Source: an uncultured Burkholderiales bacterium | GTDB lineage: Bacteria > Pseudomonadota > Gammaproteobacteria > Burkholderiales > Burkholderiaceae_C | NCBI GenBank assembly: GCA_903906635.1 | Contig: CAIVLE010000138.1 | Span: 1-34,352 of the forward strand | Direction: 5' to 3' | Length of the DNA: 34,352 nt | Part shown: one piece after another, positions 18,618 through 34,352 of the stretch | Layout: each line of letters starts with the position of its first letter | Position numbering within the stretch: the first letter of the stretch is position 1 | Notes under the pieces: generated by a model | What the model saw: only the letters and a program-made list of their open reading frames with translations | Told to the model about the DNA's origin: nothing | The model's database searches: none | Position numbers and translations under genes: made by a program

Positions 18618-19160
18618 TCAATCTAGGTTGAGTTTTTCTCGTTCGGCCCACTCCATGAAGCGGGGCTCAATGCCTTGGCTGCGCTGCCAATCGGCCATCG
18701 CGTAACCGGTACCCGCTGGCCAACAAATCACATCTTCGGGGCGGTAAAGCTTGTACTCTACCAACTCTGGGGACAAGGCAATGTCGCCGTGCGCCAGCGC
18801 ATGGTAGGCAATGATGACTTGGTTCATGCGCTGAAAGTCATACACCCCAACCAAGCTCAAGGCGTGGGTTTGTAAGTTCGTTTCTTCGGCAATCTCACGG
18901 CGAATCCCGTCTTCGGGCGATTCACCCGCCTCCATGAATCCGGTGATCAAGGCAAAGCGTCGGCCCGTCCACGCCGCATTGCGCGCCAGCAAAATTTGCC
19001 CCTGGTATTGCACGATGGCCGCCAACACGGGGGTCGGATTGTTCCAGTGCGTCCAGTCACAGGCCGTGCAACGCAAGCGTTCGGTGAGTCCGCCATCTTC
19101 TTGCTTGGCAATCAAGCTCAGGGGCGTGGCGCAACTGGGGCAAAAACGAAACGCGCTCAT
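18618..19160 (-). CDS. NUDIX hydrolase with N-terminal zinc ribbon (NudC-like)
   Basis: FCPSC...CTAC zinc ribbon; GFMEAGESPEDGIRREIAEET NUDIX box. Confidence 0.92.
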   Translation of the reverse strand: MSAFRFCPSCATPLSLIAKQEDGGLTERLRCTACDWTHWNNPTPVLAAIVQYQGQILLARNAAWTGRRFALITGFMEAGESPEDGIRREIAEETNLQTHALSLVGVYDFQRMNQVIIAYHALAHGDIALSPELVEYKLYRPEDVICWPAGTGYAMADWQRSQGIEPRFMEWAEREKLNLD

Positions 19161-20071
19161 GCGGGGAACACTCCGGTGGAGAGGTAACGGTCACCCCGGT
19201 CGCACACGATGAACACAATGGTCGCGTTGTCCACACGCTGTGAGATTTGCTGCGCCACCCAACACGCGCCGGCCGCTGAGATGCCCGCAAAAATGCCCTC
19301 CTCGCGCGCCATGCGTCGGCACATCTCCTCAGCATCGTCTTGGCTCACATAGACCAATTCATCCACATGGCTGGGGTCGTAAATTTTAGGCAAGTACTCT
19401 TGCGGCCACTTGCGGATGCCCGGAATGCGCGAGCCCTCGCTGGGCTGTGCGCCGATGATGCGCACGTTTGGATTTTGGGTTTTTAAATAGCGCGACACGC
19501 CGGTGATGGTGCCCGTGGTACCCATGGCGCTGACAAAGTGGGTCACACGGCCCTGGGTGTCTTGCCAAATTTCTGGGCCCGTGGTTTCAAAGTGGATGCG
19601 TGGGTTGTCGTCGTTGCCAAACTGGTCAAGCACCCGCCCTTTGCCTTCGCGCTGCATGCGCTCGGCCAAGTCACGGGCGTACTCCATGCCGCCGCTCTTG
19701 GGCGTCAAAATCAACTCAGCACCAAATGCTTTCATGGTTTGAGCACGCTCGATCGACAAGTCCTCGGGCATGATCAACACCATGCGGTAGCCCTTGATGG
19801 CCGCAGCCATGGCCAAGGCGATGCCGGTATTGCCCGAGGTGGCCTCAATCAAGGTGTCGCCGGGCTGAATGTCGCCGCGCTCTTGCGCACGCTGAATCAT
19901 GGACAGGGCAGGGCGATCTTTGACCGAACCCGCAGGGTTGTTGCCTTCAAGCTTGCCCAAAATCACATTGCCGCGTCGCGCGTTGTCAGCAGCACCAATT
20001 CGTTGCAAAGCCACCAACGGCGTTTTGCCAATTGCGGCTTCGATCGTGGGATACAAGTTTTTTTCGTTCAT
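19157..20071 (-). CDS. cysM: Cysteine synthase B
   Basis: IEAAIGKTPLVALQRI, LEGNNPAGSVKDRPALSMI, EATSGNTGIALAM; start at 20071 or 20089, not the track start 20197. Confidence 0.94.
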   Translation of the reverse strand: MNEKNLYPTIEAAIGKTPLVALQRIGAADNARRGNVILGKLEGNNPAGSVKDRPALSMIQRAQERGDIQPGDTLIEATSGNTGIALAMAAAIKGYRMVLIMPEDLSIERAQTMKAFGAELILTPKSGGMEYARDLAERMQREGKGRVLDQFGNDDNPRIHFETTGPEIWQDTQGRVTHFVSAMGTTGTITGVSRYLKTQNPNVRIIGAQPSEGSRIPGIRKWPQEYLPKIYDPSHVDELVYVSQDDAEEMCRRMAREEGIFAGISAAGACWVAQQISQRVDNATIVFIVCDRGDRYLSTGVFPA

Positions 20072-20111
20072 AGGCTTGGACTGTGCCATAATATTGGTCG
20101 TTCTCTCCAGT

Positions 20112-20196
20112 GCCCGGGTGGTGAAATTGGTAGACGCAGGGGACTCAAAATCCCCCGCCGCAAGGCGTGCCGGTTCGATTCCGGCCCCGGGCACCA
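20112..20196 (+). tRNA. tRNA-Leu(CAA)
   Basis: GCCCGGG...CCCGGGC-ACCA acceptor, anticodon stem GGGGA/TCCCC with loop CTCAAAA, variable arm, GGTTCGATTCC T-arm, encoded CCA. Confidence 0.95.
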
Positions 20197-20248: not shown

Positions 20249-21499
20249 ATGAATGACGACGAAGACGAGTTCCCCGATTTCGTAGTTGGTAGCGGAACAG
20301 AGCACCGTGTGGCTGTCTCCGAAGTCACTGGCAATGCCAAAAACCCCAAAAATGTGGTGGTGTCTCACCCCGAAGAAGCCGCCGAGCGCAAATCAGGCCC
20401 TCAACACGTCAACGACGAATCCAAAGCCAGCAAACCCTTGCAGGGCGGCGACGCAGGGATCAACAACCCCGACAAACGCTTGGCCGATGGCACACCAGAC
20501 GCCAACGTTCAACACCTTGCCAAGCAAGCCCTTGCGGCCAACCTCCAAGCGGCTCCAAGTGGCCCAAGCGCTGCTGCCAATGTGCAAAGCGTCCACACAG
20601 ATGCGCCGGCCATCAACCGTCAAGCCGTGGCGGCCTCTGCGCCCACAGGGCCCAATACCCAGTCCATTGGCAGCGATGCCATCAACGACAACCGCCAAGC
20701 CCTCCACACGCCCGCCACCCCTGCAGCCAACGTGCAAAGCCTCGCCACGGATGTGGCAGCGAACAACCGCCAAGCCTTGCCGCCATCAGCCCCCACGGCG
20801 CCAAACATCCAGGCCAACGCTGGCGATGCCGCAGACAAGAACCGTCAAACGCTCCAAACCACACCTGCGACTGCACCCAATGTGCAAAGCATTCCAAGTG
20901 ATGAAGCCGCGGCCCGACGCCAAGCCATCCCCACGGATCAGGCCTCAGACAACCGTCAAGCCCTGGGCAGCCCTAACACGCCGTCCAATCATCAACCGGT
21001 GTTGACTGCCAGCGGTCGCCCCAACGTGCAAGACATTCCCACCCTGGTCATTGACCCGAACTTGCAATCGGTCAACTCCGCTGCACCGATGGCTGACAAC
21101 CGCCAAGCCATTGGCAGCAGCGATGCAAGCCTCAACCGACAAGCCGCCCCCGAGGACGGGCCAGGCAAGAACCGCCAAGCCACAAGTGCCCAAGCCTTGA
21201 ACGACCACCGTGAAGCCCTGCCATCGGGTTCTGCTGTGCGTTCCAAGGTCGACTTCCCATCGGGCCAGGGCGACTCGGCCAGTCCATCGAACGCCCTTCA
21301 AAACTCAAAACACGACCAAGCAGCAGGTGAGGCCTCTGCGGTCTCGGCTGGCCAAACCCCACCACTCACAGCTGCCGAACAAGAAAAGCTCAAGCACGAG
21401 GAAGCATCGGCCCTGTTTCACCGCCGTCTGGTGGGCATCAAACACAACGTCGATGATCTCAACCACCGCCTCACCGACTTTGAACAGAAATCACTTTGA
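20249..21499 (+). CDS. Hypothetical N-x-Q tandem-repeat protein (416 aa)
   Basis: Clean ORF after tRNA-Leu; acidic N-terminus MNDDEDEFPDF; about 20 N-x-Q units at 12/13-residue spacing; C-terminal helical EQEKLKHEEASALFHRRLVGIKHNVDDLNHRLTDFEQKSL. Confidence 0.85.
   Translation: MNDDEDEFPDFVVGSGTEHRVAVSEVTGNAKNPKNVVVSHPEEAAERKSGPQHVNDESKASKPLQGGDAGINNPDKRLADGTPDANVQHLAKQALAANLQAAPSGPSAAANVQSVHTDAPAINRQAVAASAPTGPNTQSIGSDAINDNRQALHTPATPAANVQSLATDVAANNRQALPPSAPTAPNIQANAGDAADKNRQTLQTTPATAPNVQSIPSDEAAARRQAIPTDQASDNRQALGSPNTPSNHQPVLTASGRPNVQDIPTLVIDPNLQSVNSAAPMADNRQAIGSSDASLNRQAAPEDGPGKNRQATSAQALNDHREALPSGSAVRSKVDFPSGQGDSASPSNALQNSKHDQAAGEASAVSAGQTPPLTAAEQEKLKHEEASALFHRRLVGIKHNVDDLNHRLTDFEQKSL
20504..21220 (+). 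repeat. Coding tandem repeat, 12/13-aa units (75-bp double unit in the first part)
   Basis: Asn (or aligned Arg/His) at residues 86, 98, 111, 123, 136, 148, 161, 173, 186, 198, 211, 223, 235, 247, 259, 271, 284, 296, 308, 320. Confidence 0.9.
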
Positions 21500-21609
21500 G
21501 CACACCTGAGTGTCTGGGGTGTCTCACGTGTCGCAGTTTTTTCAAAATTCACACTTTGCCCTCATTACGATAGAGGTTGACACCTAGACCCCCATTGCCA
21601 GGAGCCCCC

Positions 21610-22731
21610 TTGAGCCATCTTTTTTCTGAATTCACCCTCTCCTCCCCAAGCGGCCCTTTGACCTTGGCCAACCGCGCGGTGGTTGCGCCCATGTGCCAAT
21701 ACTCTGCGCACAACGGCCACGCCACCGACTGGCATTTGATGCACTGGGGCAATTTGCTCAACAGCGGCGCGGGACTCTTCACCCTTGAAGCGACAGCCGT
21801 CACAGCACGTGGTCGCATCACGCCCTATTGCTTGGGTCTGTGGGACGACAGCACTGCGGCCGCTTTGAGCGAGACCTTGGGGCGAGCTCGACACCTCGCC
21901 CCCCGAGTGCCCGTGTGCATTCAGCTGTCTCATGCGGGCCGCAAAGCCTCCAGCGCAGCGCCTTGGGATGGCGGCAAATTGCTCGATGCAGCGCACCAAG
22001 GCTGGCAACCCGAGGGCCCTTCGGATGTGCCCCATTTGGCAGAAGAAACACCCCCCGAGTCGCTCAGTGCCCAAGGTTTGCAAGACATCCAAACTGCTTT
22101 TGCACAAGCCGCCCAACGTGCCCAAGCCATGGGCATCGAAGCCGTCGAATTACACGGTGCCCACGGCTACTTGTTGCACCAGTTTTTGTCCCCCTTGTCG
22201 AACCACCGCAGCGACGCTTACGGAGGCAACTTTGAAGGACGCATCCGTTTCCCACTCGAAGTCTTCCAAGCGGTACGCGCTGTCTACAAGGGAAGCTTGG
22301 GTATCCGTTTGTCTGCCACCGATTGGGTCGAGGGCGGATGGACGCCCGAAGAAACCGCCGACTTTTCCTTGCGTTTGAAGTTGGCTGGTGCCGACTTTGT
22401 GCACATCTCTTCGGGGGGGGTGTCATCCCAACAAAAAATTGCCATTGGCCCGGAGTACCAAGTGCCGTTTGCCAAGTTGGTCAAGCAAAAAAGCGGGCTA
22501 CCCACCATGACCGTGGGTCTGATCACCACGCCACAACAAGCCGAAGATATCTTAGTGCGCGGCGATGCGGACCTGGTGGCCCTGGCCCGCGCTTTTCTCT
22601 ACAAACCCCGCTGGGTTTGGGAAGCGGCTGCCGCGCTGGGTGGCACCGTCCAAGCCAGCCAACAATACTGGCGCTGCATGCCGCGTGAAGCCCAAGGCAT
22701 CTTTGGTGCCGTGCGCATCGGCCAACGTTGA
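21610..22731 (+). CDS. NADH:flavin oxidoreductase / old yellow enzyme family
   Basis: LANRAVVAPMCQYSA, VCIQLSHAGRKAS, ELHGAHGYLLHQFLSPLSNHRSDAYGG; TTG start at 21610 preceded by CAGGAG (track start TTG 21577). Confidence 0.92.
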   Translation: MSHLFSEFTLSSPSGPLTLANRAVVAPMCQYSAHNGHATDWHLMHWGNLLNSGAGLFTLEATAVTARGRITPYCLGLWDDSTAAALSETLGRARHLAPRVPVCIQLSHAGRKASSAAPWDGGKLLDAAHQGWQPEGPSDVPHLAEETPPESLSAQGLQDIQTAFAQAAQRAQAMGIEAVELHGAHGYLLHQFLSPLSNHRSDAYGGNFEGRIRFPLEVFQAVRAVYKGSLGIRLSATDWVEGGWTPEETADFSLRLKLAGADFVHISSGGVSSQQKIAIGPEYQVPFAKLVKQKSGLPTMTVGLITTPQQAEDILVRGDADLVALARAFLYKPRWVWEAAAALGGTVQASQQYWRCMPREAQGIFGAVRIGQR

Positions 22732-34312: not shown

Positions 34313-34352
34313 GGGAGTACTTCGATGGGAGTACTTCGATGGGAGTACTTCG
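34313..34352. repeat. 14-bp tandem repeat at window end
   Basis: GGGAGTACTTCGAT x2 plus 12 nt of a third copy, running off the window. Confidence 0.9.

Follow-up and report, generated by a model that had tools for sequence, protein, structure and literature searches.

What holds a protein chain to a spacing of 12 or 13 residues over some twenty units, and what such a chain might do in the cell, are the questions raised by an open reading frame (ORF) that follows a tRNA-Leu gene in the window, the whole stretch of 34,352 nucleotides analysed here. The ORF and the parts of its product are as follows:

20249-21499, plus strand: NxQ repeat protein gene, 416 aa, ATG start
20249-20359, plus strand: N-terminal family motif, residues 1-37; acidic start, then, in consensus form, S-G-x(2)-H-x-V-x-V-S-E-x-T-G-N-A-K-x-P-K-N-x-V
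20504-21223, plus strand: repeat array, 20 units of 12/13 aa, residues 86-325; predicted disordered; dN/dS at N and Q 0.016
21371-21493, plus strand: C-terminal helix, residues 375-415, pLDDT mostly >90; conserved coil F-H-x-R-[LV]-x(2)-[IL]-K-x(2)-V-x(2)-[LI]-N-x(2)-L

The 416-aa protein contains 18 N-x-Q motifs, and 16 of the 17 successive gaps between them are 12 or 13 residues (in order 12, 13, 12, 13, 12, 13, 12, 13, 12, 13, 24, 12, 12, 12, 13, 12 and 12), the single gap of 24 lying across a degenerate unit that reads RRQ at residue 223; the unit at residue 320 reads HRE. In 20,000 shuffles of its residues the maximum was 9 N-x-Q motifs and 2 gaps of 12 or 13. Identity autocorrelation was strongest at a lag of 25 residues (0.26), then at a lag of 12 (0.21), over a background of approximately 0.08. 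The preliminary description, made from the sequence alone, had reported about 20 N-x-Q units in 12/13 register, a 25-aa double repeat and degenerate units at these same two residues, all of which was borne out, as was an acidic N-terminus without a transmembrane (TM) segment: residues 1-80 carry a net charge of -7, and the best 19-residue hydropathy value is only 0.55, so there is no TM segment in the protein. Cys is absent, and no export signal was found, the start being acidic and a hydrophobic segment lacking. TRF detected no DNA-level tandem repeat within the ORF, and the repeat pattern is therefore held at the protein level and does not stem from recent tandem duplication, which was rejected as the source of the array. 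Elsewhere in the window, a perfect 14-bp tandem repeat (2.9 copies, 34313-34352) lies at the very end of the contig, and 12-bp repeats at 945-1094, inside the ORF 15-2042, encode an RGEG-type tail.

The surroundings of the gene comprise the following features:

20112-20196, plus strand: tRNA-Leu(CAA), 52 nt upstream of the ORF; order the same in about 20 relatives
20088-20095, plus strand: conserved CATAATAT, immediately 5′ of the tRNA; a possible -10 box for tRNA and ORF
19157-20095, minus strand: cysM-like cysteine synthase, left flank of the conserved locus; identity from the sequence as read, not a profile search
21577-22731, plus strand: old-yellow-enzyme-type (OYE) oxidoreductase, right flank of the conserved locus; identity assigned in the same way

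A comparison of synteny beside tRNA-Leu in related genomes, proposed in the preliminary description, showed that the gene order cysM–tRNA-Leu–repeat gene–OYE is fixed in about 20 genomes. At this locus the flanking proteins are mostly 75-97% identical, and the repeat protein is mostly ~30-40% identical (71% in the nearest relative). The distance from the end of tRNA-Leu to the ATG of the repeat gene is mostly 43-69 nt among relatives. The repeat gene is probably co-transcribed with tRNA-Leu, because CATAATAT is conserved upstream of the tRNA and no terminator-like site was found on the plus strand between tRNA-Leu and the ORF. At two related loci (L065 and L099) cysM and tRNA-Leu are separated by several kb of variable genes, some of which match a kinase and a response regulator; these genes are absent from the window.

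Database searches gave no relative of the window protein in a described family: there was no match in Pfam or NCBIfam even at E 10, in PHROGs at E 1 or, using the family profile A1, in the PDB at E 1, and nothing was found in the literature on this repeat protein. The earlier statement that the pattern belongs to no named family thus stands, and neither of two findings named beforehand as counting against the proposal, a confident match to a characterised family or absence of the ORF from relatives, was made. With a 16-row alignment as the query, the family was matched in 77 of 85 Limnohabitans genomes, and in 39 of the 41 good ones, including Limnohabitans spp. Jir61, JirII-31 and B9-3. In the sample of the taxonomic family, one of 140 further genera (G200) gave a match, and the order-level sample gave only marginal coil-type matches (E about 0.005), none of them convincing. 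The sole phylum-level match (G771) has a different repeat, ADFxLDALRxHRTNR, without N-x-Q, and was rejected as a relative. Viral contigs and plasmids were searched and contained no family relative, and a phage or plasmid origin was rejected on that ground. The window gene is a vertically inherited Limnohabitans gene.

Across the 32 family members compared, the invariant or nearly invariant columns sit at both ends, in an N-terminal motif (IIRS..H.V.V..GS.NAK and variants) and a C-terminal coil (FHGR[VL]..[IL]K..V..[LI]N..LD), between which lie 0 to 30 N-x-Q units per member. The unit logo is N-x-Q-[GAS]-[IVL]-[PGA]-[TNS]-[DE]-x-[ILVA]-x-[DA] across the family and takes the form N-x-Q-[small]-[ILV]-x-x-[D/E]-x-[ILV/A]-x-x in the window clade. 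Of the family N-x-Q gaps of up to 40 residues (n=702), 94% are 12/13 or multiples, with 411 gaps of 12, 138 of 13, and 10 of 11 and 14 together. The window protein carries the N-terminal motif, the 12/13 register and the C-terminal coil in one chain, the combination by which the family is defined. Among members whose N-x-Q motifs are few or absent, most still show a significant 12/13 period (z 4.8-11.6; weak in L199 and L138), as in L182 with its D-H-x-x-x-[VI]-[PA]-x-[DE] units, and members in which His or Ala replaces N or Q still keep it. The register persists where N-x-Q has been lost, and is thus the more fundamental feature of the two. Further copies were noted in Limnohabitans sp. Jir61, namely a second full-length one ~7 kb from parA/parB-like ORFs (L102:8363-9853) and a paralogous 229-aa ORF with a few N-x-Q motifs and a C-terminal coil (L101:9111-9800).

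Selection on the array was assessed against the nearest ortholog of the window protein (L061, 71% identity, overall dN/dS 0.39). The dN/dS ratio was 0.016 at the 40 N and Q positions, 0.57 in the remaining repeat positions and 0.13 in the C-terminal coil, and Asp at unit position 8 together with its column neighbours was identical in 17 of the 20 units. A lack of purifying selection at the N-x-Q positions, also named beforehand as evidence against the proposal, was therefore not what was found. These values bear on the idea of the array as an entropic spacer, there simply to hold the N-terminal motif and the C-terminal coil apart by its length, with N and Q kept for solubility. Such a spacer would accord with N-x-Q numbers ranging from 0 to 30 between members, with conservation concentrated at the ends, and with a flagellar-operon stub that has no array (below), but it needs neither a dN near zero at N and Q while their neighbours drift nor a unit length fixed at 12/13, and we regard it as quite unlikely.

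AlphaFold2 (AF2) modelling of the full protein, another check proposed at the outset, gave a pLDDT of about 40 across the repeats and mostly >90 over residues 375-415, a single helix (32 sequences). The most regular homolog (L005, near-perfect 12-aa repeats) was likewise modelled as a disordered array with a confident C-terminal helix, and no regular solenoid coil appeared in the monomer models (disordered array, pTM 0.19). Perfect repeats are reported to lead AF2 into confident but mistaken solenoids (PMC11795689); that none was built here therefore counts against a solenoid, as evidence rather than proof. The models concern the isolated monomer, not a chain that might fold against a partner or within a fibre. 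The preliminary description had left the choice between a short solenoid and a flexible array with a C-terminal coil, and of these the flexible array is favoured, the C-terminal helix is supported and the solenoid is not. A beta-solenoid, or a cross-beta or amyloid-like fibre formed alone or when triggered, in which each 12/13-residue unit supplies one rung of an N/Q ladder, would nevertheless explain the strict unit length (gaps of 12 and 13 greatly outnumbering those of 11 and 14), the alternation of N, Q and an aliphatic residue at unit positions 1, 3 and 5, and the ladder type of the residues under selection. We consider this structure unlikely in view of the L005 model, the Pro-rich B units of the window array and the retention of register in members that have His or Ala for N or Q. 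Taken with the per-position selection, the models predict that the array is a disordered chain of a conserved short motif.

The origin of the family appears to lie in a flagellar operon. A three-gene cassette is found downstream of flhB in Limnohabitans and, judged from gene I, in approximately 5 of 140 other genera sampled (examples are L098:5275-9689, L117:13293-20000 and L104:3954-7854). Gene I encodes a cytoplasmic domain of no known family (no Pfam match), a TM segment and a SPOR domain; gene II, between the SPOR gene and the coiled-coil gene, encodes a member of the repeat-protein family; and gene III encodes a TM and coiled-coil protein. DamX-type SPOR proteins have the same layout of N-terminal cytoplasmic domain, TM and C-terminal SPOR; gene I differs from them in its place after flhB and in its N-domain without a Pfam match. 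Gene II resembles the window gene in the motif [IVL][IV]RS..H.V.V..GS.[NS]A[KR], the C-terminal coil and also, in some Limnohabitans genomes, the 12-aa repeats, but it lies in the flagellar operon, and outside the genus it is short and mostly without repeats. In G200, from another genus, gene II has 12-aa DHRE repeats, not N-x-Q (L104:6066-6995).

The window copy does not occupy the gene II position, as it sits at the tRNA-Leu locus; in the same genome that position, on contig C203, is taken by a gene II stub flanked by the SPOR and coiled-coil genes. In five genomes gene II consists of the N-terminal motif and the coil with few or no N-x-Q motifs. The seven genomes with a long N-x-Q gene II have no other full-length copy among the matches listed, whereas at least 24 of the 27 inspected genomes with a coil-only stub have a repeat protein elsewhere; in G081 and G005 the stub is present with no repeat protein among the matches listed. 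This exclusivity gives a Fisher p of 2e-5 among the matches listed, a value that overstates the evidence because the genomes are related and the relocations amount to about 4-5 independent events. Addresses outside the operon include the tRNA-Leu locus (A), a site beside a B12-binding-domain gene (D), a site beside a transporter gene (K) and other places, and in an FlhB tree the addresses A, B, D and K each form one clade (support 98-100). In the D clade the repeat gene lies directly 3′ of the B12-binding domain (PF02310) gene (L110:11017-11988, L111:7139-8056 and L114:7753-8727). Most simply, the gene would have left the flagellar operon once in each clade, and a stub would have stayed behind.

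The flagellar link of the repeat protein is drawn from this origin and exclusivity, and a strictly flagellar role is doubtful because G100 (96% complete) has kept a family member while FlhA and FlhB were not found in its genome, which may be incomplete; strict dependence on flagella was rejected on this evidence. In favour of the link, FlhB was not found in G085 (99%), where FlhA is a fragment only and the family match is coil-only. The description of L. australis as non-motile (PMC3031073) was counted against it. The flagellar cluster of G074 (L107 and L108) looks complete and has very long ORFs, FlgE-like (1269 aa), FlgK-like (1297 aa) and flagellin (1331 aa).

A second relative has two TerB domains (PF05099 x2) followed by N-x-Q units. 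This protein, TerB2-NxQ, shares with the window protein N-x-Q arrays in 12/13 register, and is set apart by its TerB domains, which Pfam does not find in the window protein, and by the absence of the N-terminal motif. Several members have a C-terminal hydrophobic segment, which we read as a TM helix. In all 5 loci examined the TerB2-NxQ gene comes third, behind those for a response regulator and a histidine kinase, although two of these loci have otherwise different neighbours; the operon, with an OmpR-type response regulator, occurs in the window's own genome (L095:298-4537, contig C73) and at L097, L100, L105 and L106. No paper was found on a TerB-domain protein with a two-component system. 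The N-x-Q units could be ligands of TerB domains, placing the soluble protein and TerB2-NxQ in one complex under kinase and regulator control, a proposal that overlaps with the adaptor described below. The same units in both proteins and the placing of the TerB2-NxQ gene with those of a regulator and kinase would fit, but strong TerB2-NxQ matches occur in about 42 of 85 Limnohabitans genomes compared with 77 for the whole family, and the gene is not co-located with the window gene; we think such a complex rather improbable.

The explanation we favour, at about even chances, is that the window protein is a cytoplasmic, largely disordered, multi-site adaptor of flagellar-cassette origin that links membrane-anchored partners. 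Its short N-terminal motif would dock, the ~20 copies of a 12/13-residue recognition unit would form evenly spaced binding sites whose fixed spacing sets the positions of partners, and the C-terminal helix would serve in oligomerisation or docking. In the window clade the repeat-bearing copy would have moved once to the tRNA-Leu locus while the coil-only stub stayed in the operon. Gene neighbourhood and shared units suggest as candidate partners the membrane-anchored cassette proteins, TerB2-NxQ of the response-regulator/kinase operon, or both. While sequence, selection, synteny, family and exclusivity are observed, and the disorder and helix predicted, we infer that the protein is cytoplasmic and oligomerises, which partners it has and what it may do at the flagellum or cell pole. 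Motif arrays that are freely disordered do not usually keep so strict a register, and this counts against the adaptor. One very unlikely variant would account for the register: the array may be a molecular ruler, an extended chain running along a cytoplasmic polymer or ring of matching subunit spacing, with a docking site every 12-13 residues (an estimated 4.1-4.4 nm). The flagellar C-ring or an FtsZ-like filament is presumed to offer such a spacing. The disordered chain would then take its fixed register from that of its partner, and unit length would accordingly be conserved more tightly than the N-x-Q letters.

Disordered chains that act as multivalent scaffolds through repeated short motifs are known, an example being CsoS2 of carboxysomes. 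If the adaptor reading holds, the window protein resembles these in repeating short motifs along a disordered chain, but no sequence relation was found and its spacing is far stricter. Curlin (CsgA) and RTX repeat proteins also have short strict repeats, with N/Q and Asp, respectively; they differ in being exported and in unit length and motif, and the curlin repeat (PF07012) gave no Pfam match to the window protein at E<10. While disordered multivalent scaffolds as such are not new, a strictly registered one of flagellar-cassette origin appears to be. The analysis describes a previously undescribed protein family, matched in most genomes of a dominant freshwater genus, whose letters vary while its spacing is constant, and which therefore offers a natural test of what fixes register in a disordered chain. 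It further directs attention to two sources of linked repeat proteins, an undescribed flagellar-operon cassette of three genes and a two-component operon; one species of the same genus is described as non-motile.
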